This document shows, one piece after another, positions 40,710 to 52,153 of a DNA stretch of 64,000 bases; positions within the stretch are counted from its first letter, which is position 1; every line of letters begins with the position of its first letter. Under the pieces are notes generated by a model. That model was not told the origin of the DNA. It saw only the letters and a program-made list of their open reading frames with translations, and did no database searches. The position numbers and the translations under genes were made by a program. The stretch is from Coriobacterium glomerans PW2 (GTDB lineage Bacteria; Actinomycetota; Coriobacteriia; Coriobacteriales; Coriobacteriaceae), in contig NC_015389.1 of the NCBI RefSeq assembly GCF_000195315.1, positions 1,922,001 to 1,986,000 on the forward strand, in the 5' to 3' direction.

Positions 40710-41963
40710 TCATTTGGCACGATGCATCTCGTCGTCGGGTGCGCACCTGAGCGTGGTGGCGGCGACCTCATCGGCACGCACGATACGCGGACCCGAGAAG
40801 GGCTCGTCGCCGGCGGCAGCGTAGTCAACCTGGTTGCATTTCAGCACCGCTCTCTCGCCGATCTGCACGAACGGCTCGCCGATGTGATCGGCGTCCGGAT
40901 CGAAGACGATCTTTGCCCGAGTGAACTCGAGCGAGCCGGGCTCTTCCTCCGTCCCCCTGAAAAATGAGGGCTGACTCGCGCCGATGACGCGAATATCCTC
41001 GAAGCGCACGTTGAGAAGGGGGCGCTCAGTCTGATAGCCCTTCGCGCTGCCGTAATCATAGTTGATGAGACGCCCCGGCCGCTCGAACGTGCAGTCGCGG
41101 ATCAACCAGTTGCAGGCGTCCTCACGAATGACGTCGCCCTTGATAGAATAGTATTTCACCGCAGCATGCATGTGGTAGGTACCCTCGAGAATGTGAGGGT
41201 ACTCCCCCGGACCACTGAAGCGGCAGTGTTCGACAAGCAGATTCGCGCAACCTAGGCGCAGCGCGTTACATGCGGTGTTGAGCAGACAGTCCTCAATGAG
41301 AACATTGCGCGCGTCGAAGCCGGCGACACAGTCATCACCACAGCGCAGATCACAGCGGCGGATGATCACGTTGTCGCAGTGATGCACGTTGAAGCCATCA
41401 TGGCCGCCCCGGACCGCGACGTCCTCGATTCGCACGTCCGTGCACGAATCGATCTGGTGCGACCAGTTCGCCGCGTTGACGAACTGATAGCCGCTCAGAC
41501 GTACGCCTTCGCAGCGGCAGATACGAATGCCCATCGCACCGCGAAAGCCCTCTTCTCCGTTTGGATCGAAGCAGTCGACGCCGTCGATCTTTGATCCGGG
41601 CTCGCCGGTGATCGCGACGTTTCGAGCATCGGCCACGGTGATGAGCGCACGCGCGTAATGCTCGCAGAGCCCTTGGATGCGCGCGATATCGGGATCATCG
41701 ACATAGCGCAGCGTCGTGGAGATGTCCCAGTCGGTGTAATCGTCGATGTCCTCGCTGCCCAAGATCTGGGCACCTGCCCTCAGATGAAGCTCGGTGTCTC
41801 CGTGCATGAGGACGCTGCCGATGCGATAGGTGCCGGCAGGCACCACCACACGGGCCGGCCCCGTTTCTCGGGCCCGATCGAAGGCTTCCTGAAACGCCGA
41901 GGTCGCGAGCGAGGCGCCACCGGACGCCTCGGCTGGAATCGTTAAGTCTTGGTGCTGCACCAT
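40710..41963 (-). CDS. GH28-like right-handed beta-helix protein
   Basis: 417 aa parallel beta-helix protein of the pectin-lyase-like superfamily: VVVPAGTYRIGSVLMHGDTE, HLRAGAQILGS, then repeats of the NVxIxxC type including GGHDGFNVHHCDNVIIRRCD and CGDDCVAGFDARNVLIEDC. The GDD pair resembles the GH28 site, but the GHG and RIK motifs of polygalacturonases are not seen. No signal peptide, so it acts in the cytoplasm, consistent with PTS import. ATG 41963 follows GAGGAAGGG. Last gene of the long minus-strand series; specificity unknown. Confidence 0.8.
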   Translation of the reverse strand: MVQHQDLTIPAEASGGASLATSAFQEAFDRARETGPARVVVPAGTYRIGSVLMHGDTELHLRAGAQILGSEDIDDYTDWDISTTLRYVDDPDIARIQGLCEHYARALITVADARNVAITGEPGSKIDGVDCFDPNGEEGFRGAMGIRICRCEGVRLSGYQFVNAANWSHQIDSCTDVRIEDVAVRGGHDGFNVHHCDNVIIRRCDLRCGDDCVAGFDARNVLIEDCLLNTACNALRLGCANLLVEHCRFSGPGEYPHILEGTYHMHAAVKYYSIKGDVIREDACNWLIRDCTFERPGRLINYDYGSAKGYQTERPLLNVRFEDIRVIGASQPSFFRGTEEEPGSLEFTRAKIVFDPDADHIGEPFVQIGERAVLKCNQVDYAAAGDEPFSGPRIVRADEVAATTLRCAPDDEMHRAK

Positions 41964-42027
41964 AACCGCTTCTTCCCTTCCTCTTTGAATCGCCAGATCG
42001 CTCAGAGTCAGCTGTATGCGCCGAGCG

Positions 42028-42939
42028 TCATGAAATGCTGGCGGCTTCATCGCTCCAGACGATCTCCATCGGATCATGCCGATCATCGGTGAAGCGCACA
42101 GCAACCAAGCTGTAGCGCGAGGTGCCGAGATCCTCTCGGCACCAGTGATCTATCAATGCGAGATAGCCGTCACCCGCCCGGAAGATGCAGGTGATCTGCC
42201 CGTCAAAGGTTGTGTGCTCGCGTGGTCCGCGGCAGGGGTTGTCGATCAGCCTCCATCTGCCATCCATGGCGACGGCCGTGCCGAACAGCGCCGCGTTCGG
42301 GTGCCATCCGCTGCATCCTGAGGTGACCAGATAGCGTTGATCGTGGGCGGCGAACACGCAGGGCGCTTCCCTCTTCTGATCGATGAACACCCGGGCGAAG
42401 TCGCCTTCGACATCGAGGCAGTCTTCGGTGAGTGCAGCGATGTGAAGCGTCCAGTTGCTCTCTGAGCTGTAGATGACGTAGATGCGCCCCTGCTCCTCGG
42501 AGAACAGCGTCATGTCCCTGCTCTGCTGATTATTCGGTCGCATAGCTCGAACTAATTCGAAGGGGCCCGCAGGATCGCTCGCCATCGCGACGCCGATCGA
42601 CGCAGCACGGTAGGTCGCATCATCGGCGTGGAACCACATCACATAGCGACCGGTCGCCTCGCAGCGCACGACGCGCGGTCGCTCAACCACACCCGAGGGC
42701 CGCATGAGCGGACAAGGATGATCTGGCGAGGTGGGCAACACGAGTCCGCAGTCGTGCCAAGATCTCAGATCGGCCGATCGATAGCAGCGGATACCGATCG
42801 CCTCGACCCGCCGATCGCGGGTCTCGCACGATTTGTCCTCCCCGTACCAGAAGAATCCATCATCTGTCGGCAGAATCCAACCGCCGTGCGCTTGAATGGG
42901 CCTGCCGCGCTCATCGAACCACATCGAATTATTTCGCAT
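42028..42939 (-). CDS. GH43 glycosidase, exo-beta-1,3-galactanase-like (subfamily 24 type)
   Basis: 303 aa five-bladed beta-propeller. The N-terminal RGRPIQAHGGWIL with FFWYGEDK, then ERPRVV, YVMWFHAD, GVAMASDPAGPF, SRDMTLF and IYVIYSSES match the exo-beta-1,3-galactanase branch of GH43. That branch removes galactose (often with beta-1,6 side chains) from type II arabinogalactan. No signal peptide. The ATG at 42939 has CGGAGCG upstream and overlaps the previous gene's stop by 11 bp; the longer frame is not family-like. Confidence 0.85.
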   Translation of the reverse strand: MRNNSMWFDERGRPIQAHGGWILPTDDGFFWYGEDKSCETRDRRVEAIGIRCYRSADLRSWHDCGLVLPTSPDHPCPLMRPSGVVERPRVVRCEATGRYVMWFHADDATYRAASIGVAMASDPAGPFELVRAMRPNNQQSRDMTLFSEEQGRIYVIYSSESNWTLHIAALTEDCLDVEGDFARVFIDQKREAPCVFAAHDQRYLVTSGCSGWHPNAALFGTAVAMDGRWRLIDNPCRGPREHTTFDGQITCIFRAGDGYLALIDHWCREDLGTSRYSLVAVRFTDDRHDPMEIVWSDEAASIS

Positions 42940-43813
42940 CTGATCGCTCCGTATCACCCGTGTCGGCTTGGTCATCTTCAACGCGGCGCGGGTCCCGGAC
43001 GCTCCACGAGCCCGGATCGGTTTCGCGACCCATGACCATGATCTGGGACAGCCCGGGAAAGCCGTGCTCCTCCGCCTTCTCCAACTGTGAAAGGGCAAGC
43101 CATGCGATGCGAGCGCCACCGAGCGGAAACGTCTGACGCAGGCCCGTGGCCGCGAGCCGCAATGTCACCTGCTGGCCGTCGGACAGCGTGAGCAGCGCAC
43201 TGCGCCACCAGGTGTCGTGAGGAAAATCTGTTCGCAGATACAGCCGCAGCTCATCAGCGATCACCGATCTTCCGAACTCGATTTTGAGCCAAGCGTCGCG
43301 CTGGTCGTTGATACCCCAAGACTCATGGGGCCAGCTGCCATGCCTGCCTGTCTCGAATACTCCGTCGATCGCGTTGCGCGCAAGAAACTGGGGATTGTCG
43401 CAGCGAACGTTGGTCACCGCATGCGGATAGAGCACGGGTGCCGAGCCCGACGGCAAGCTCAGATCATGGGAGTTCTCAGCGAGGTTGCGCCAAGATTCTC
43501 GCTCCCGCTCATCGAGGACCCGAACATAGCCCCAGTGCCGCTCGCCGGCAAACGCGCGGGGTCCATAGGCCTTGCGCTCATCTCCGAACGGGATCATGAA
43601 GGTGAAGGTGCGATCTGTGAGCAGCACCACGCTCTCCGACAAACCGCGATCGAGACACATGGCGAGCATCTGAGGCGGAGCCGCACAGCTGAGCACGATC
43701 TGGTCGCCCGGCGCGTAACTGCCGCGCCAGCCGAGAGTCACCTCATCGGCCCGGTTGCCTCGCCATCTCAGGATGCCCGTGCCGGTGCGCACCTCGAGAC
43801 CCAGCTCCGCCAT
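42929..43813 (-). CDS. uncharacterised protein with discoidin-like C-terminal domain
   Basis: 294 aa. The C-terminal half resembles galactose-binding/F5-8-type beta-sandwiches: NAIDGVFETGRHGSWPHESW, DAWLKIEFGRSVIADELRLY and a late IAWLALSQLEKAEEHGFPGL. The N-terminal half has beta-rich sequence without recognised family. No signal peptide. The ATG at 43813 starts one base after the GH43 stop (TGAGATG), and the downstream gene overlaps its end, so it is made in step with the glycosidases. Possible role: sugar binding or an unrecognised glycosidase. Confidence 0.7.
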   Translation of the reverse strand: MAELGLEVRTGTGILRWRGNRADEVTLGWRGSYAPGDQIVLSCAAPPQMLAMCLDRGLSESVVLLTDRTFTFMIPFGDERKAYGPRAFAGERHWGYVRVLDERERESWRNLAENSHDLSLPSGSAPVLYPHAVTNVRCDNPQFLARNAIDGVFETGRHGSWPHESWGINDQRDAWLKIEFGRSVIADELRLYLRTDFPHDTWWRSALLTLSDGQQVTLRLAATGLRQTFPLGGARIAWLALSQLEKAEEHGFPGLSQIMVMGRETDPGSWSVRDPRRVEDDQADTGDTERSDAK

Positions 43814-43814
43814 C

Positions 43815-45536
43815 TCAACAACCTGACTTGTCAAGGCCGGGGGCGATATCCTCATAGGAGAACGAAGCGAAGCGCGCGTGAGCCGTCTTATCAAACATAT
43901 CAACGCAGGCGACACCGACCATCGATCCGGTGTATGCCCATCCCGCGACGCGCTCATCGCTCATGCACGAGGCATCGAGCTCAAGAGGCGCACCCGACGC
44001 TCCGACCGCCTGCTCGGGTCCGGCATCAAGAGAGACCGCGAAACGCAGACGGGGCTCATTCATGTGCGCGATGAGCGTCACTTCATCGACCGCATCGGGC
44101 ACCTCGATTCGCTGCCGTCCGCCAAGTGGCATATTCAGCGCACCATCGATGCAGGCGAGCACATCGATCACACGGCAGTCGCGCGCCTCATCGAAACCTA
44201 CGCATAATAAGACGAATGCCCGGGTGTCATAGATCCAAACGAGCCCGGCGAGCTGGTTGTAATGGGTCGGCTTGAAAGAGAGTGTCGTTTGAGCGCGACA
44301 GATCGTGCTCGTCTGCCGCCGCACGAGCAGAGCGGGATCGAACAGCGAGGTCAAAGAGTCGCCGCCGCGAAGCTCAAGACCCCCATCCGTCAGCGTCCAC
44401 GCAGGATCGCGCAGCGTGCGCGATGCGAGCCACTCCTCACACCATAGATCGGTGGCAGATGTAAACGCCGTCTCATAGTTATATCCCGGCTCACCGGGGC
44501 ACTTAAAACGATCTGGTGCACACGTGCCGTCCTCATCGGCGGACTCGGCGCAAACGGTTGCATCCGCGACCACGTAGCTGCCGATCGGCGCGGTGTCCCC
44601 GCATGCCAAGCGGGGCCAGCCGTCGACCCATATGACGTTTTGGATCGCGGTCTCCCGCCCGAGCGGTGACACCTCGGTACCCGGCAGGTACCGTGCGCAC
44701 AGATGACAGACGTACCAAGCTCCGGCATCATCGCGGAGCAGGTTGCCGTGCCCCGCCTTTCTGAGCGAGCAGTCCTTTCCCCACGAACTGAGCATCGGAC
44801 GGGCCGGATCAACCTCGTAGGGACCCCACAGATCATCGGCGCGCGCGACCACGATGCTGTGGTGACGGCCCGTGCCGCCCTCGGCGCACACGATATAATA
44901 GCGTCCGTCGTGCTTCATGACATGCGGACCCTCGCGCAGATCGTGCACAGCATCGTCATTGGTGAGCACCGTGCGCGCCATTCCGATCAGGCCGCTCTCG
45001 ACCGAGAACTCCTGCATGATCAGACCGTTGAACCTATGATGGCCCGGCAGCGGACGCGGATCCCACTGGGGATTGATGAAGTAGTGTCTGCCGTTCTCGT
45101 GGAAGATACCCGGATCGAACCCTGATGCGTTGATGAATACCGGCTTGCTCCACGGGCCGATAATCTCCTGAGCGGTCGTCACGTAGTTTTCGACGTCCCT
45201 GAATACGCCGTCGATCTGCTTGCAGACGGTGTAGGCGAGCCAGAAGCGGCCCGTCATCTCATCGAAGGTGAGATCGGGTGCCCAGATGCCCGCCGAATCC
45301 GGAATGCCGCGCAGGTCGAGATCGCCCAGCAGACCACCTAGGCTTCTCCAGCGCACAAGATCGATCGACTCGTATATCGAGACTCCCGGCATCCATTGAA
45401 ACGTCGAGGTGACGAGGTAGTACTTCCCTCGTGCGCGGCACAGACATGGATCGGGATGCGCACCGGCGAGGACCGGGTTGGCGACCACCGTCCTGTCCCC
45501 CGCATCGTAAGGCTCTTGGCAGAGTTCCTCTACCAT
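43815..45536 (-). CDS. GH43 beta-xylosidase/alpha-L-arabinofuranosidase-type glycosidase
   Basis: 573 aa. N-terminal GH43 propeller (about 15-330) with the three acidic residues in place: Asp29 in GAHPDPCLC, Asp141 in SGFDPGIF and Glu202 in LREGPHVM; also YYLVTSTFQWMPGVSIYES and GIWAPDLTF. Residues about 360-573 form a GH43 C2-type beta-sandwich. This arrangement is that of cytoplasmic xylosidases/arabinofuranosidases of the XynB group. No signal peptide. Overlaps the GH88 stop (ATGGTAG). Confidence 0.9.
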   Translation of the reverse strand: MVEELCQEPYDAGDRTVVANPVLAGAHPDPCLCRARGKYYLVTSTFQWMPGVSIYESIDLVRWRSLGGLLGDLDLRGIPDSAGIWAPDLTFDEMTGRFWLAYTVCKQIDGVFRDVENYVTTAQEIIGPWSKPVFINASGFDPGIFHENGRHYFINPQWDPRPLPGHHRFNGLIMQEFSVESGLIGMARTVLTNDDAVHDLREGPHVMKHDGRYYIVCAEGGTGRHHSIVVARADDLWGPYEVDPARPMLSSWGKDCSLRKAGHGNLLRDDAGAWYVCHLCARYLPGTEVSPLGRETAIQNVIWVDGWPRLACGDTAPIGSYVVADATVCAESADEDGTCAPDRFKCPGEPGYNYETAFTSATDLWCEEWLASRTLRDPAWTLTDGGLELRGGDSLTSLFDPALLVRRQTSTICRAQTTLSFKPTHYNQLAGLVWIYDTRAFVLLCVGFDEARDCRVIDVLACIDGALNMPLGGRQRIEVPDAVDEVTLIAHMNEPRLRFAVSLDAGPEQAVGASGAPLELDASCMSDERVAGWAYTGSMVGVACVDMFDKTAHARFASFSYEDIAPGLDKSGC

Positions 45537-46681
45537 AGCCGCGCGTCCTTACCGAGCAGCCGCAGCACGACCTCGAGCAAATAATAGTCGGCGTAAACCA
45601 TGGCCACGTGTCGATCGCTCTCGCAGTGATAGGCTCCCGAGCACATCTGAACGATGCCGTCGCGGTCGATATCCCAATCACAGAACCGCGTATCGGTCGC
45701 TCGCAGGATGCGCATCGCCCAACTGAGCCAGCTCGCTCGCTCAGCGCCCTCGCAGGCCTCCGCAATCTCGAGCAGACCGCAGGTGGCGATGCATCCGGCG
45801 AGCGCATCCCAGAGCACCGGCTTCGCCGGCTGACGAAAGTCGAGCAGGGCCACATCGCCGGTCAGTGCCACCTGGGAGGTGAAATAGTTTGCCACGCGTT
45901 TCGCCGCGCACAGATAGCGCTCATCGCCCGTGTGCCGATAGGAGAGCGCGAATCCGTAGATAGCCCATGATTGGCCCCGGGACCAAGAGGATCCGCTTGC
46001 GCAACCCTGTCCGGCGGGGGCCCCCAGAAGCGCACCGGTTGCGGGATCGAGCTGGATGATATGGTTGCACGAACCGTCCGGGCGAACGATCTTGTCGAGC
46101 ACGGTGTCGGCGTGATCGCACGCGATGTAGGTGAAACGCGGATCACCTATGCGCTCCGCAGCCCAATACAGCAGCGGGATGTTCATCATCGAATCGACGA
46201 TGACCCATCCGGCGCGGTCGCGGTTCCACGATCGAATGAAGCGACCTCTCGGATTGTAGCGCCCGGCGAGCAGATGAGACGCATGCAGCCCGCGAGCCTC
46301 TGAGCGCTCGTTGCCGGTGAGACGGAAGTCCGCAACAGCCGAGAGAAGCCACATGAATCCCACGTCGTGATGGAGACCGGTATATCGGTCGAGCGCGCGG
46401 TCGAGTTTCTCCTCGACGGCTCGAGCTGGTTTGGCGTAGCGCTCGTTACCCGTCAGGTGATAGAGCTGCCAAAGAATCCCCGGCCAGAAGCCGTTGGTCC
46501 ACCACACGATGTCTGTCAGAGATTTGTCCTCGCGATATGCACCGTTCTGCGCAATGTAGGGAATCGCTGAGCCCACGCGGTCGCACTCCGCGAAGAGCTT
46601 GGCGGTGAGCCGAGCCAGCGTCGCCTGCGTCCAAGCGCGCTCCTCAGCATTCAGATCAAATGGCTGTTCCAACACCGACAC
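45530..46681 (-). CDS. GH88 unsaturated glucuronyl hydrolase
   Basis: About 383 aa alpha/alpha-barrel. Family landmarks: TDIVWWTNGFWPGILWQLY, HHDVGFMWLLSA with Asp106, GWVIVDSMMNIPLLYWA with Asp163 (equivalents of the catalytic Asp pair in Bacillus UGL), GCASGSSWSRGQSWAIYGFA. GH88 enzymes hydrate the double bond of 4-deoxy-unsaturated uronate on oligosaccharides from lyase digestion of glycosaminoglycans or other acidic glycans. No ATG fits; I propose GTG at 46681 (GTG 46675 or TTG 46672 are possible), overlapping the preceding gene. The product would feed the DhuI/DhuD-like pair. Confidence 0.9.
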   Translation of the reverse strand: MSVLEQPFDLNAEERAWTQATLARLTAKLFAECDRVGSAIPYIAQNGAYREDKSLTDIVWWTNGFWPGILWQLYHLTGNERYAKPARAVEEKLDRALDRYTGLHHDVGFMWLLSAVADFRLTGNERSEARGLHASHLLAGRYNPRGRFIRSWNRDRAGWVIVDSMMNIPLLYWAAERIGDPRFTYIACDHADTVLDKIVRPDGSCNHIIQLDPATGALLGAPAGQGCASGSSWSRGQSWAIYGFALSYRHTGDERYLCAAKRVANYFTSQVALTGDVALLDFRQPAKPVLWDALAGCIATCGLLEIAEACEGAERASWLSWAMRILRATDTRFCDWDIDRDGIVQMCSGAYHCESDRHVAMVYADYYLLEVVLRLLGKDARLW

Positions 46682-47300
46682 CCCCGTCGAGCTGATCGAC
46701 TTGCATTTCGAGATGCAGCGCAGCACGCGAGCGCAACGCGAGCACGCGGCCATCGCCGATTGACGCATAGATGCACGCGAGTAGATACTCGGCGTACCCC
46801 AAGCGATGGCCATTGAGATTGGCAATTTGATCTTCGATGCGTTCGCGCTGATCGACTCGACCTGCGAGCACGATCTCGAAGAACTGCCGGTATCCCTCCA
46901 AGCTGGTAACGTTTACATGCGAGGCCTCCATCTCCTTGAGGATGCGCTCGCACCGTTTTCGGTCGCGCATGCGGGCGAACGCCGCGAACCCGTCGGTGAG
47001 CAGGCTCACGCGATTGAACTCATTCAGAGGAAGTTTCATAAGCACATTGAACTGATCAGCCATACGCTGTCGGTCATGTGAAAGTGCATATGCCTTGAAG
47101 CACGCGATTCCACGTGCATAGGGCGACACCAGCATCCTCGCTGCGCGACCATCAGCGCGGGCGAGAACCGCTTCGGGGTTCCCCCGTTCAAGATCATGCA
47201 TCATCTGAAGATAGACGTCGCTGCGCAGACGAAACATGGCAAGTGCCGAGACGAGAACGACAATGACAATGGCAGCGAGCATGATTCCGAGCGCGCTCAT
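46656..47300 (-). CDS. unknown small membrane protein with TPR-like helices
   Basis: 214 aa. One N-terminal TM segment (about 5-23, GIMLAAIVIVVLVSALAMF) and a soluble part of helical repeats of TPR character (for example AFARMRDRKRCERILKEMEA, YAEYLLACIYASIGDGRVLA). I do not recognise a family. It lies between the PTS IID gene and GH88 and overlaps GH88 by 26 bp, so it is produced with the hydrolases. A strong hairpin precedes it. It may scaffold the PTS or hydrolases at the membrane; this is speculation. Confidence 0.7.
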   Translation of the reverse strand: MSALGIMLAAIVIVVLVSALAMFRLRSDVYLQMMHDLERGNPEAVLARADGRAARMLVSPYARGIACFKAYALSHDRQRMADQFNVLMKLPLNEFNRVSLLTDGFAAFARMRDRKRCERILKEMEASHVNVTSLEGYRQFFEIVLAGRVDQRERIEDQIANLNGHRLGYAEYLLACIYASIGDGRVLALRSRAALHLEMQVDQLDGGVGVGTAI

Positions 47301-47320
47301 ACATCCCCTTCCTGGCCGAT

Positions 47321-47354
47321 GAGCGGAGTGCCGGTGGAAACCGGTACTCCGCTC
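47321..47354 (-). terminator. strong intercistronic hairpin between PTS IID and the membrane protein gene
   Basis: GAGCGGAGTGCCGGT and ACCGGTACTCCGCTC form a 15-bp stem (one G-T position) with a GGAA/TTCC loop. There is no U-run, so a processing/stability element or partial terminator is more likely than full termination. Confidence 0.6.
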
Positions 47355-47391
47355 CCTTCATCGTGAAGATCAATCAGCATTGCAAGTGCCT

Positions 47392-48261
47392 TTAACCAGT
47401 AACTCCCAGCAACGTGAGCACGATGGCAATTACGATCATTATGAGCAGAAGAATCATCGCGCTGTTCTTTGATCTGCTCCGACGCAGGTACATGAAGCTA
47501 CCGAGCGTAAGCAACAGTGGGAAGAGCCCGGGCAGAATCGAGTTGAGCATATTCTGCAGATTGAAGACCGCACCACCGCCCATGTCAACGACGAGCGTGG
47601 TCTTGACAGATACGAACTGAGCGACCATGGCCCCGGTCATAATCATGCCGAGAACGGTAAAGCCCTTGGTGAGCGCCTGCATTTTGCCCGAAGCGAGCGC
47701 CTCGGTGATGAAGCCGGTTCCGAGCCGCATGCCGAGACTTCCGCACAGGTAGTGGATGATGAGATCGGGAACGTTATATACGAGCGCAAATAGAATAGGT
47801 CCTAGCCAACTGCCCTGCTGCGCGAAGCCCACGGAGACGCCGATAGCGATAATGCGCAGACACGACAGGGTGATCGCATCGCCGATACCGGCGAGCGGGC
47901 CCATAAGGGCGACCTTGATGGCCTCGATAGAGGCATCATCGAACTCTTCGCCGCGTGACAGGGCTGCTTTGCGGTCATATTCCATAGAGATGACGAGCGC
48001 GAATATAAACGAAGCATACTGAGGCGTGGTGTTGAAAAAGTTCTGATGGCGCTGAATTGCCTCGTAGAACTCGTCTGTCTCCTTGCCGTAGATGTCCTCG
48101 AGATACGGGATCATCATGAATGCGAACGTCGTGCCCTGCTGCTTGGTATAACTCGTGCAGAACATGATGAACATGGTGCGCCAGAACAGACTCCAAGTGA
48201 TCTTGGCCTTTTTCCCCGGGGTGAGCGCAGCCGCCCCTTCGGTGGCAATCGCATTAGTCAT
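47392..48261 (-). CDS. PTS mannose-family EIID component
   Basis: 289 aa. EIID pattern: ITWSLFWRTMFIMFCTSYTKQQGTTFAF (read in parts), MIPYLEDIYG, FFNTTPQYASFI, ALMGPLAGIGDAI, and C-terminal TM segments. EIID with EIIC forms the membrane channel. The ATG at 48261 overlaps the IIC stop by 8 bp. The family with associated GH88 and DhuI/DhuD resembles the streptococcal PTS for unsaturated glycosaminoglycan disaccharides. Confidence 0.94.
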   Translation of the reverse strand: MTNAIATEGAAALTPGKKAKITWSLFWRTMFIMFCTSYTKQQGTTFAFMMIPYLEDIYGKETDEFYEAIQRHQNFFNTTPQYASFIFALVISMEYDRKAALSRGEEFDDASIEAIKVALMGPLAGIGDAITLSCLRIIAIGVSVGFAQQGSWLGPILFALVYNVPDLIIHYLCGSLGMRLGTGFITEALASGKMQALTKGFTVLGMIMTGAMVAQFVSVKTTLVVDMGGGAVFNLQNMLNSILPGLFPLLLTLGSFMYLRRSRSKNSAMILLLIMIVIAIVLTLLGVTG

Positions 48262-49120
48262 TGAAGAAGTCCTCGCTTTCATCGCTCGATGCGGAAATGG
48301 CATGCGCCGCCTTCTTCTCATTGATCTTCCTGAACTCGTTGAAAATGACGAGCGCGGCCAAGGCGCCGCCGAACAACGCAAGCTCTACGAGCGTCAGGAT
48401 CGGAGTGGGCGCACTCGTGAGATTGACCGCTTTGCCGTCAAGCGCCGCCGCAGTCACGTTGTTGTAGCTGAAAAACGCGATCGCACCGAAACCGACAAAG
48501 AAATACGGGAACTCGGTGGGCGTGTAGAGCTGCTTGAGCAGCAACGCGAGTCCGAGCGCGGGCAGCATCGTTGACGCCACCGTAAGCGATTTCTGAAGCC
48601 ATGTCGGCAGGGCATCGACGAATGCCTGAACGACCGGCTGCCCGGCGAGCGTGCAGACGAAACCGAGAACGAAGTAGCACAGCACGAAAACGATTGCCTG
48701 TGCAAACCAAAGTCGCTTGTAACTACCCACTTTGTGCTCGGTGAGCAGGATCTCGAAGCGAGGCACGATCATGGTGACAACGATCTTCATGCACGAGTAG
48801 AGAAGCGTGCCGAGCGCGGAGAGGGGTACGGCAAGCGTCACTGCCACCGAGACGTTCTGGCCCAGAATCATGGCAAACGCTGATCCGAAGATAGCACCCA
48901 TCGTGATATCAGAGGGCATCACGCCACCTAGACTCACGTTGCCGATGAAGATAAGCTCCATCTCAGCCGCTAGCGTCAGCCCCTCCTGGGGATGGCCGAG
49001 CAGCAGGCCCAGGACAGGGACGCAGACGATCGGTCTGGAGAGCTGCGAGGAACAGGTCCAGTCGAGGAATTTCGCCCCCATCAGCACAAGGCCGACCATT
49101 AACGCGGCATACACATCCAT
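48254..49120 (-). CDS. PTS mannose/sorbose-family EIIC component
   Basis: 288 aa, eight or so TM segments. N-terminal ALMVGLVLMGAKFLDWTC, then LLLGHPQEGLTLAAEMELIF (typical of EIIC-Man), GVMPSDITMGAIFGSAFAM. It imports the sugar with EIID while EIIA/EIIB pass phosphate. Acidic C-terminal tail. Upstream EIIB ends 83 bp before. Confidence 0.94.
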   Translation of the reverse strand: MDVYAALMVGLVLMGAKFLDWTCSSQLSRPIVCVPVLGLLLGHPQEGLTLAAEMELIFIGNVSLGGVMPSDITMGAIFGSAFAMILGQNVSVAVTLAVPLSALGTLLYSCMKIVVTMIVPRFEILLTEHKVGSYKRLWFAQAIVFVLCYFVLGFVCTLAGQPVVQAFVDALPTWLQKSLTVASTMLPALGLALLLKQLYTPTEFPYFFVGFGAIAFFSYNNVTAAALDGKAVNLTSAPTPILTLVELALFGGALAALVIFNEFRKINEKKAAHAISASSDESEDFFND

Positions 49121-49202: not shown

Positions 49203-49688
49203 CTATGCGAGCATGCCCATGAAGTCAAGACGCGCGTCATCGGGTAGCGGTTGGTAAATCACCTCAATGCCCAGATTGGCGATCTGCCGTATGGCCTTTT
49301 CGTCTCCCTCGGTAAGATAAACCGTATCGGATATCTTCTTTTTGCCGGTGATCGACCCGTTAATGCGTCCATAGTTGGCTATATCGAGAACAGGGCGTTC
49401 CTCGATCGCCTTGAACACCTCGAGCAGATTCGCCGGATCATTTGAGATGAGCAGGATCTTCATTGCGTCCGCACGATGATCAGACAGGATCGCGGCCGCC
49501 TTCTTGTTCGGCAAAATCGCTCCCTTCACCCCCGGCGGTATCGCCCCTTTTAATGCGGCGACCTGCACCGGGCTTGCTGCCACCTTGTCACTGGCAACGA
49601 TGATTCTCGTGATGCCGAGATCCTTGGACCATCTGACCGCCACCTGACCGTGAATGAGACGATCATCGATACGCGCCATGCTGATCAT
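49203..49688 (-). CDS. PTS mannose-family EIIB component
   Basis: 161 aa. Phosphorylation site His13 in ARIDDRLIHGQVAVRW, the EIIB-Man signature; the remainder follows the family (RIIVASDKVA, LPNKKAAAILSD, IANYGRINGSITGKKKISD). ATG 49688 follows GAAAGGAG. It transfers phosphate from EIIA to the incoming sugar. Confidence 0.95.
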   Translation of the reverse strand: MISMARIDDRLIHGQVAVRWSKDLGITRIIVASDKVAASPVQVAALKGAIPPGVKGAILPNKKAAAILSDHRADAMKILLISNDPANLLEVFKAIEERPVLDIANYGRINGSITGKKKISDTVYLTEGDEKAIRQIANLGIEVIYQPLPDDARLDFMGMLA

Positions 49689-49755: not shown

Positions 49756-50187
49756 CTAGAAGAAGTCCTCCTCACCGCTGGTCGTTCCATCTGAGATTAG
49801 CTTGGGTGAAAGCAGGTTCGTTCTCTCTTTCGACTCCTCGATGATGACCTGCAGCTGCTTGTCGGAGAGTTGTCCTGAAGAGCAGAGCACACCAAGGACT
49901 AAACCCAGCGACATGCCCGAGATCACCTTTGTGTTCGGCATGTCGAGCAACTGCTGAACACATTGGTTGCAAACGCTTCCACCAAGGATGTCCGCGATGA
50001 CGACGAACTGCGTCTCAGGATGCGCTGCGGCGCGATCAGCAATCTTCCCGATTATCTCCACGCAGCTTCCATCCGGCGCGAGGCACGCGCAGGACAGCTC
50101 AGCGCTTTCACCGAATACCATCTTCACCGCGCTCATCATGCCGTACGCGAGATCTCCGTGCGAAACCAGAACAATGTTTCTGTGCAC
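49756..50187 (-). CDS. PTS mannose-family EIIA component
   Basis: 143 aa. His10 in VLVSHGDLAYGM is the HPr-dependent phosphorylation site; FVVIADILGGSVCNQCV is the conserved ADxxGGS motif. It lies 67 bp before EIIB. First PTS gene after the promoter and operator at about 50226-50256. Confidence 0.95.
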   Translation of the reverse strand: MHRNIVLVSHGDLAYGMMSAVKMVFGESAELSCACLAPDGSCVEIIGKIADRAAAHPETQFVVIADILGGSVCNQCVQQLLDMPNTKVISGMSLGLVLGVLCSSGQLSDKQLQVIIEESKERTNLLSPKLISDGTTSGEEDFF

Positions 50188-50359: not shown

Positions 50360-52120
50360 TCAGGCGAAGAGTTCCTCGCCGAAGACGAGACATCCGAACA
50401 AGCTTTCTCCGGCGGGGATCTCAACCCGGAGCACCGGGACCGCACTCGGTTCGGAGCTGAGCACATTTGTATTGGGGTTCTGCCGAACGATGTCTGGAGA
50501 TCGGCGGCACCATGCTCCATCTTGGGGCTTCTGCGGCATCCCAGCCGCTTCCAAGATGCGTCCGATGACTGAAGGGTCATCTGCCGCATCGCTGATCTCG
50601 CTGATCTGCGTTCTCTGCGCGTGCTGCATTTTCCAGATCCGGACCGAGTTCGAACCGGTTTCGCTTTCATCGAACTTGGAGCTCCACCCCATCACCGGAA
50701 AACCGCCCTCATAGGTTTCCATGGGATACTCCGCTTCGATGCGATGCACGCGCACATGCCGTCGCGCGTCGATGGGTACCAGCCAGGTCTCAACGCGGAC
50801 CAGGTCCCGATAGCTCCACATGCTGTACGCGTACCGCTCGCAGACGGACCACGCGTCGATGCGCGATCTGCTCACGAACTGACCCGTATGTGCGATCGAC
50901 AATGCGAGGGAGCTGTCGACGCCGAAGTTCGCGATGCCGTCGACATCGCGTGAGAGATTCCATCCGAAAGCTGTCGAATAACAGAACTTGCCGTACTTTC
51001 CCATGCGCTGAAGAACCGAGCCCGCGCTGTACTGCATCACCGAAAGTGCAAAGCAATCGCGCTCACCTCGCTGGATCAAAAGACCGGGCGCGGGCTGCGC
51101 ACGACGCTCGCTGATAGCAGGTGCCGTTGGCTTAGTTTGCCAGAACTGACTCTCACCGTCGAAGGCAAGCAACAGAAACGCCTTGAACCCCCAAAAGGGC
51201 GCTCCGGGAGCCGTATAATCCTCTGCCACGAGAATATTGGGGTAGCCAAATCCGATGCTCAAAACGCCATCCTGCGTGATGGGTTGCTCCGACCAGAAGC
51301 TCAGGTTTGCGAGCGTCATCTGCTTGATCTCCGAGATGTCATGCGTATTCGCCTTGGCCAGCGTGGCGGCGGCCCAGTAGCCGATGTGCGCGAAGCGATA
51401 GGTCAGACTCCTGCCGAATGGAATGCTTCTCCCCTGCGAATCACTCCAGCAGATGAAGTCCTCTTCGAACGCCTGGCTTCGTGCGATGACATCTTTAAGC
51501 GCGTGATCGGGAACAAACCGATCTATCAACAGGGCATACAGGTGGAAGACGATGGCGACATAGTAGTCGCGCTGAAATGGCTTGCCGTCCTCGAACCATC
51601 CGTCCGACACGTACATGCTTTCCACCGCTCGGCAGTCCGACTCGATGCGCTTGCTGCTAAAACTCAGGCCGTTCTGACGCAAGCCGTAGTTAACCATGAT
51701 GCGAAACAGATACCAGTTGCCCCAGGGCAGATCGATATCGTTGATCGCGTTGAGCCAGCGCTCCAGCGATCGAGTCTCCTCCTCGGAAAAACGATCCAAC
51801 AGGCTCTTCCCACAGCTGAGCAGCCCGAAACCGTAAACTCCCATCTCGACGCAGATCTGTCTGGTCTTGATGGTCGGGTACGGGAAGGAAAGCTCGCCCG
51901 GACGCAGGCCGACCCGAATTCGCTCGATCCACGGTTCGACGATTCTCTCGTCATATTCTCCACTGCACAGCAGAGAAAAGATCGCCCACAGTGGACGCGA
52001 GACATATTCAAGATGGCGGATCTCCTCGCCGTACGATGAACCCGTCTTCCCTATGTAGTCGAACGGATCTGGCAGCAACTCGACAAGCCAGTCCGTGAGA
52101 TCTTCCCGACTGCATATCAT
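50360..52120 (-). CDS. DUF2264 family protein, probable glycan-active enzyme
   Basis: About 586 aa. Matches the DUF2264 pattern: YPTIKTRQICVEMG, LPWGNWYLFRIMVNYGLR, SDGWFEDGKPFQRDYYVA, SIPFGRSLTYRFAHIGYWAA and GAPFWGFKAFLLLAF, an alpha/alpha-barrel N-terminal domain followed by a beta-rich half (about 370-586). Members sit in polysaccharide utilisation loci and are suspected or shown to act on uronate-containing glycans. No signal peptide. ATG 52120 lies seven bases after AAAGGG. It has its own operator-like site; 172 bp separate it from the PTS genes. Confidence 0.83.
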   Translation of the reverse strand: MICSREDLTDWLVELLPDPFDYIGKTGSSYGEEIRHLEYVSRPLWAIFSLLCSGEYDERIVEPWIERIRVGLRPGELSFPYPTIKTRQICVEMGVYGFGLLSCGKSLLDRFSEEETRSLERWLNAINDIDLPWGNWYLFRIMVNYGLRQNGLSFSSKRIESDCRAVESMYVSDGWFEDGKPFQRDYYVAIVFHLYALLIDRFVPDHALKDVIARSQAFEEDFICWSDSQGRSIPFGRSLTYRFAHIGYWAAATLAKANTHDISEIKQMTLANLSFWSEQPITQDGVLSIGFGYPNILVAEDYTAPGAPFWGFKAFLLLAFDGESQFWQTKPTAPAISERRAQPAPGLLIQRGERDCFALSVMQYSAGSVLQRMGKYGKFCYSTAFGWNLSRDVDGIANFGVDSSLALSIAHTGQFVSRSRIDAWSVCERYAYSMWSYRDLVRVETWLVPIDARRHVRVHRIEAEYPMETYEGGFPVMGWSSKFDESETGSNSVRIWKMQHAQRTQISEISDAADDPSVIGRILEAAGMPQKPQDGAWCRRSPDIVRQNPNTNVLSSEPSAVPVLRVEIPAGESLFGCLVFGEELFA

Positions 52121-52153
52121 CATATCGCCCTTTCGCAACTCATTCCGGATTGA

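Follow-up and report, generated by a model that had tools for sequence, protein, structure and literature searches.

The window analysed here, a stretch of 64,000 nucleotides from the genome of Coriobacterium glomerans PW2 (one contig of 2,115,681 bases), raises the question of what a small membrane protein, called X below, does between the genes of a mannose-family PTS and those of a series of hydrolases. The genes lie on the minus strand in the order IIA-IIB-IIC-IID-X-GH88-GH43, with X (46656-47300) downstream of the PTS (50187 to 47392) and upstream of the hydrolases. The PTS genes encode EIIA (49756-50187; PF03610, E 6.5e-16), EIIB (49203-49688, start presumed; PF03830, 3.4e-36), EIIC (48254-49120; PF03609, 5.3e-51) and EIID (47392-48261, from a presumed ATG at 48261; PF03613, 3.6e-77). 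A DUF2264 protein (50360-52138; PF10022, 1.2e-79) is encoded upstream of the PTS on the same strand. The hydrolases are a GH88-type enzyme (45530-46681; PF07470, 7.5e-08), a GH43 enzyme (43815-45536; PF04616, 1.7e-74), a second GH43-like enzyme (42028-43119; PF04616, 5.1e-12) and a GH28-like enzyme (40710-42104; PF00295, 6.2e-07), the last two given as listed reading frames with tentative starts. Because hydropathy shows no signal peptide or TM helix in the window hydrolases, the GH88-type enzyme among them, they are probably cytosolic.

Around the locus, sigma-70-like promoters number 4 against an expectation of 5.0, and terminator-like sites 14 against 9.6 (standard deviation 2.9), both near chance; an Rfam scan of the window returned nothing at gathering scores. 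The gap between IID and X (47301-47391) holds a hairpin (47321-47354, minus strand) with no U-tract behind it, which is therefore not an intrinsic terminator; the folding z-score of this gap is -2.9, compared to only -1.2 for the equivalent gap in L134, the one other locus of this type. The sequence-only reading of this DNA had pointed to a 26-bp overlap between X and the GH88 gene. The overlap has this length if the GH88 gene starts at GTG 46681, later in-frame starts being present, but it is not conserved: in the syntenic L134, about 100 bp separate the end of X from the beginning of the GH88 reading frame. The GH88 gene of L134 (L134:6406-7556) is divided between two frames close to the start, either by a real break or by an assembly error.

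The X reading frame runs on the minus strand from an ATG, preceded on its 5' side by the ribosome-binding-like stretch AGGAAGGGG, to a stop codon, and encodes 214 residues. On the Kyte-Doolittle hydropathy scale a single TM helix stands out, near residues 4-22 (highest 19-residue mean 2.91; next best stretch 1.08). The AlphaFold model (mean pLDDT 90.0) has 11 helices, a long N-terminal helix followed by a TPR solenoid whose helices span about residues 42-206, and the model of a relative from the GH35-type loci described below (pLDDT 90.7) likewise combines a TM helix with a TPR solenoid. X is, by its predicted fold, a TPR repeat protein; reading frame, hydropathy, structure model and matches to TPR structures all bear out the early description of a 214-residue protein with one TM segment and helical repeats. 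The best solved structures found by Foldseek are MamA chains (E 0.03), none reaching E <= 0.001, and VIA-align gives Z up to 13.3 against TPR proteins (NprR), although Z of 12-13 falls within the tool's warning range for helical repeats and shows the fold only. The TPR solenoid is thus what X has in common with MamA, BamD, NlpI, NprR and other TPR proteins, to which no sequence relation was found; a common fold shows no function.

Searched alone, window X matches no Pfam or NCBIfam family, and no TPR profile of Pfam at E <= 1. Unlike its four PTS neighbours, it has no match at E <= 1 to PF03610, PF03830, PF03609 or PF03613. Hits to PP2C_2 in Pfam (E 0.039) and to PRK14500 in NCBIfam (E 0.07) were rejected as chance. 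The final thirty or so residues cannot be aligned to relatives; a frameshift there was considered and rejected, as the frame is open, relatives are variable in this region, and two copies end earlier. These two, both directly behind IID, lack the C-terminal third (133 residues in L102, 151 in L134).

X is not an orphan but a member of an unnamed, fast-evolving family, to which we extend the name X. Used alone as the query, the window sequence retrieves relatives (18-27% identity) from 46 of the 65 genomes in its taxonomic family, with a direct match at 1.8e-10 to L032, a second copy in the window's own genome. With a profile built from an alignment of 26 members (A1), X turns up in 80 of 296 genomes sampled from the class, and all of these belong to two families (f1 and f2) of the window's order. 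The window copy, itself a row of the profile, matches at 1.2e-53 and has the features that define the family: one N-terminal TM helix, Lys and Arg residues after it, and a TPR domain. Profile and structure searches had been suggested in the sequence-only reading, and they yield this family and the TPR fold. Neither Pfam nor NCBIfam, both searched, has an entry for the family. The earlier statement that no family is recognised holds for the window protein by itself; among its relatives, 12 of the 26 in the alignment match TPR_14, weakly (best E 3.4e-05), window X not being one of them. An alignment of the GH35 type, run against 84,980 named species genomes, reaches mainly members of that type and may miss close kin of the window's genome; it identified 37 loci, in Collinsella, Enorma, Olsenella, Thermophilibacter, 'Candidatus Coprousia' and bins named Coriobacteriaceae or Atopobiaceae.

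Topology is nearly uniform in the family. Not counting three fragments (L066, L132, L141) and three copies missed by the gene caller (L049, L137, L140), a clear TM helix is found in 93 of 95 members and a second in none, and Lys and Arg are commoner after the TM helix than before it in 94 of 95. Given this excess, the positive-inside rule would place the TPR domain in the cytoplasm. All eight X pairs tested have dN below dS, which, together with the place kept in a second locus, means that X is a real gene.

The contexts of 100 fetched X genes, near-copies included, show where members of the family reside. X lies directly between IID and IIA in 26 cases, adjoins IIA at a contig end in 2, and follows IID directly with no neighbouring IIA in 4 (L048, L102, L113 and L134). 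In a further 21 the IID lies upstream of X on the same strand, at a distance of up to 5.5 kb, and in 5 the IID is on the other strand. The enzymes that accompany X in PTS clusters form three sets: GH35, sulfatases, and GH88 with GH43. GH35-type loci have the order GH35-IIB-IIC-IID-X-IIA, usually followed by genes for a SIS-domain (AgaS-like) protein and an amidohydrolase (AgaA-like). Sulfatase-type loci have the order IIA-IIB-IIC-IID-sulfatase, with X beside the sulfatases; a radical SAM SPASM protein is often encoded there too, and the gene order varies. The window's own arrangement was found once more, in genome G194 (L134), again with X. Because the accompanying enzymes differ between subtypes, the transporter is the factor that these X copies have in common.

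Queries that start from the transporter give the unbiased test of this linkage. A GH35-type IID used against 395 genomes of the order identifies 42 loci, and X stands directly behind IID in 40 of them (29 of the 30 loci L234-L263 and 11 of 12 others). One of the two misses (G256) ends at a contig edge; in the other (G258, L264) IID is followed by IIA with no X. A sulfatase-type IID identifies 19 loci, 17 with X within 6 kb downstream; X was not seen within that distance in L270 and L271. Both window-type loci have X. X is not essential, since the transporters of L264, L270 and L271 occur without it.

In a tree of 60 EIIDs, whose rows come mostly from X-bearing loci, the GH35-type, sulfatase-type and window-type sequences fall into separate supported groups (11, 12 and 2 members), all linked to X; one sulfatase-type row, L104_17665, is counted as linked through the X in the adjoining locus L105. 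Of the 35 EIIDs outside these groups, three are followed by X on their own strand (L035, L126, L159), and for seven more (L103_3865, L110_3506, L115_13795, L122, L128, L131, L135) an X lies within about 5 kb, upstream or on the opposite strand; for five rows from G042, absence of X was judged by single-sequence search only. The window's own genome encodes 12 EIIDs, and X is directly behind two of them, those of the window and of L102. The L102 gene (L102:8197-8598, 133 residues), the third X copy of this genome, lies behind GH35-IIB-IIC-IID and has no adjacent IIA on its strand.

BgaC, the beta-galactosidase of the pneumococcal aga operon, is a GH35 enzyme. The operon, given as bgaC-IIB-IIC-IID-IIA-agaS-galM in the available part of its description (PMC5018945), resembles the GH35-type loci in joining a beta-galactosidase gene with IIB-IIC-IID-IIA and AgaS in the same core order. 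As described there, nothing lies between IID and IIA, the place that holds X in 40 of the 42 GH35-type loci, and the X-less L264 resembles the pneumococcal order. Because this operon has the same core order with no gene between IID and IIA, X is an extra part that the chemistry does not require. The sequence-only reading had remarked that standard PTS loci do not contain X, which agrees with its absence from the available parts of two published operon descriptions.

The sequence-only reading had proposed that X could tether hydrolases to the PTS channel; with cytosolic enzymes such as GH88 and GH43 kept there, imported sugar phosphates would be handed on directly. In all three linked types GH35, sulfatases or GH88/GH43 occur in the same cluster, hydropathy gives neither a signal peptide nor a TM helix for the window hydrolases, the TPR domain is probably cytoplasmic, and in the window the X gene overlaps GH88. 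Against this, all four GH88 loci examined that have another PTS subtype lack X (G047, L174, L175, L176). Three of the four came from a search with GH88 matches in 14 of 296 genomes, of which the window, G194 and these three were viewed with wide flanks. At E <= 1e-80 the window GH88 has matches in 3 of 395 genomes, namely the window's own, G194, which has X, and G047, which has another PTS subtype and lacks X. The four X-less loci led us to reject X as a marker of GH88 loci. In addition, one GH35 operon keeps IIB-IIC-IID-IIA without X (L264), and the overlap with GH88 is not conserved. Co-occurrence of X with both EIID and GH88 had been proposed as a check; it holds for EIID subtypes (40 of 42, 17 of 19, 2 of 2) and fails for the four GH88 loci examined with another PTS. 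Judged by gene context, X tracks transporter subtype rather than hydrolase. What stands of the role first proposed is that the family recurs with mannose-family PTS in clusters whose hydrolases are probably cytosolic. Hydrolase tethering is possible, draws no specific support from these distributions, and seems to us improbable.

The sequences of X and its transporters have diverged at different rates. In the window-type pair, identity between the window and L134 is 36% for X, compared to 69% for IID, 66% for IIC and 68% for IIB; the two X proteins align at 35% over 130 residues, and GH88 is 73% identical. With dN below dS throughout, these comparisons indicate that X changes faster than the transporter and yet is under purifying selection. 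A tree was built from 85 of the 100 fetched X genes plus the window copy; the 15 outside it are nine near-identical stand-alone copies, the three fragments and the three copies missed by the gene caller. The GH35-type copies between IID and IIA form one side of a branch with support 94, and the X proteins of the window and L134 are sisters with support 99. Sulfatase-type copies fall into separate groups, with four rows apart from the rest, though their IIDs form one group, and L102 X sits on a long, weakly supported branch; long branches make the deep order unsure. The X tree is not a simple mirror of the transporter tree. Taken with the linkage counts, X is matched to transporter subtype, perhaps through more than one recruitment.

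The remaining 42 of the 100 fetched genes, a share that is a lower bound since not all copies were fetched, have no mannose-family IID in the fetched flank. Because of these copies, we conclude that the family has a role outside the mannose-family PTS and is not only a part of these transporters; they are the chief finding against a role bound to the PTS alone. A Ppx/GppA-like gene lies within 2.5 kb of 20 of the 42 and a PTS_IIB-like gene within 2.5 kb of 18, Pfam names being taken from L052 and L032. All of these cases are in family f1, so the PTS_IIB-like neighbours possibly represent one inherited arrangement. In L052 and L032 the small PTS_IIB-domain genes (L052:7430-7717, L032:7628-7939) are divergent to X. 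The stretch around L032, the stand-alone copy of the window's genome, also encodes HPr, PTS_IIB, a PRD regulator with an EIIA domain, and PTS_EIIC. In f2, some stand-alone copies adjoin a gene for a peptidase or a DUF711 protein, or have LacI and phosphoketolase genes nearby.

These scattered copies invite a reading of X as a general envelope TPR protein of Coriobacteriales that reached PTS operons by duplication and hitchhiking and does nothing specific for transport. Its fast change (36% identity in the window-type pair, compared to 69% for EIID) would suit such a protein, but X keeps a fixed place beside IID in 40 of 42 loci, from two bacterial families, and is under purifying selection, and we hold this explanation to be quite unlikely. 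The sequence-only reading had named presence in many unrelated contexts as a finding that would count against its proposal, and the 42 copies with no mannose-family IID nearby show this in part.

The explanation we favour, with a probability of roughly 45%, is that X is a dedicated accessory protein of certain oligosaccharide-importing mannose-family PTS in Coriobacteriales, anchored in the membrane and facing the cytoplasm with a TPR domain that docks soluble partners. The N-terminal helix would anchor X in the membrane beside IIC-IID, and the TPR domain, on the cytoplasmic side, would most likely dock IIA and IIB, perhaps also the first cytosolic enzymes, at the transporter. That the substrates would be oligosaccharides is suggested by the neighbouring enzymes. 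PTS genes near stand-alone X copies speak for the accessory reading, and the split of the sulfatase-type X copies speaks against it.

YajC works with the Sec translocon, and the products of ugl genes belong to GH88. Both genes occur in the C. perfringens hyaluronan PTS cluster, whose order is given as ugl-IIB-IIC-IID-IIA-yajC-hepC in the part of the source available (PMC11496695), and a streptococcal GAG cluster is likewise described, in the part available, with PTS A, B, C and D parts and ugl (PMC6837340). Both resemble the window in bringing PTS A/B/C/D genes together with a gene for an unsaturated glucuronyl hydrolase, and the C. perfringens cluster, as described, also has a small extra gene behind the PTS (PMC11496695). 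That gene is yajC, however, and X has no match to YajC profiles at E <= 1 in Pfam or NCBIfam, so that a relation to YajC was rejected; the window's enzymes, moreover, are GH88, GH43 and GH28-like. The strongest rival to docking takes its cue from this arrangement: X would help to assemble or stabilise membrane proteins, as a small chaperone specific to IIC-IID, in the role that yajC may have beside the hyaluronan PTS, and would not be a docking scaffold. X is small, has one TM helix and adjoins IID, yajC stands behind PTS genes in the C. perfringens cluster as described (PMC11496695), and stand-alone members suggest a general membrane role. The missing YajC match weighs on the other side, as do the many other IIC-IID pairs in the sampled genomes that do without X, and we consider the assembly role rather unlikely, less so than the other rivals.

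The gap between IID and X in GH35-type loci contains a candidate RNA element. In an alignment of 19 such gaps (A3; L104:7752-7905 and 18 further sites) two hairpins are conserved, with 30 pairs, 13 of which have changed on both sides. In the alignment 98.1% of cells are paired, compared to 35-57% when the sequences are slid; related sequences can beat shuffles without structure, and it is the slid controls that support the element. Rfam gave no match at gathering scores in six loci scanned. A3 covers 19 of the 26 loci with X between IID and IIA; of the seven outside, L071 and L146 also have the motif, and it was not seen in L038, L046, L049, L137 or L140. Nor was it seen in the GH35-type gaps of L048, L102 and L113, in the window, or in the X-less L264. 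The element may adjust how much X and IIA is made compared to IIBCD.

The usual description of mannose-family PTS has four parts, A, B, C and D. A bolder version of the accessory reading would make X a fifth, subtype-specific subunit, a TPR platform on which transporter, phosphoryl donors and first cytosolic enzymes would form a complex that channels host and plant oligosaccharides, its amount set by the new RNA element in most GH35-type operons. We regard this as a long shot. If true, a conserved fifth membrane part would alter models of sugar capture by Collinsella and Olsenella, which are common gut bacteria, and would offer a handle on whether intracellular hydrolysis is physically coupled to PTS import. 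Even on the modest reading, X is a protein family missed by Pfam and NCBIfam and tied to specific transporters. In a literature search among open-licence papers, none of the matches listed looked relevant by title and the start of the abstract.

Three loci (L041, L105, L138), from relatives of Collinsella and Olsenella, have sulfatases and a radical SAM SPASM protein inside mannose-family PTS clusters. Four sulfatases checked from these clusters have no signal peptide by hydropathy, which suggests that such clusters import sulfated sugars through the PTS.
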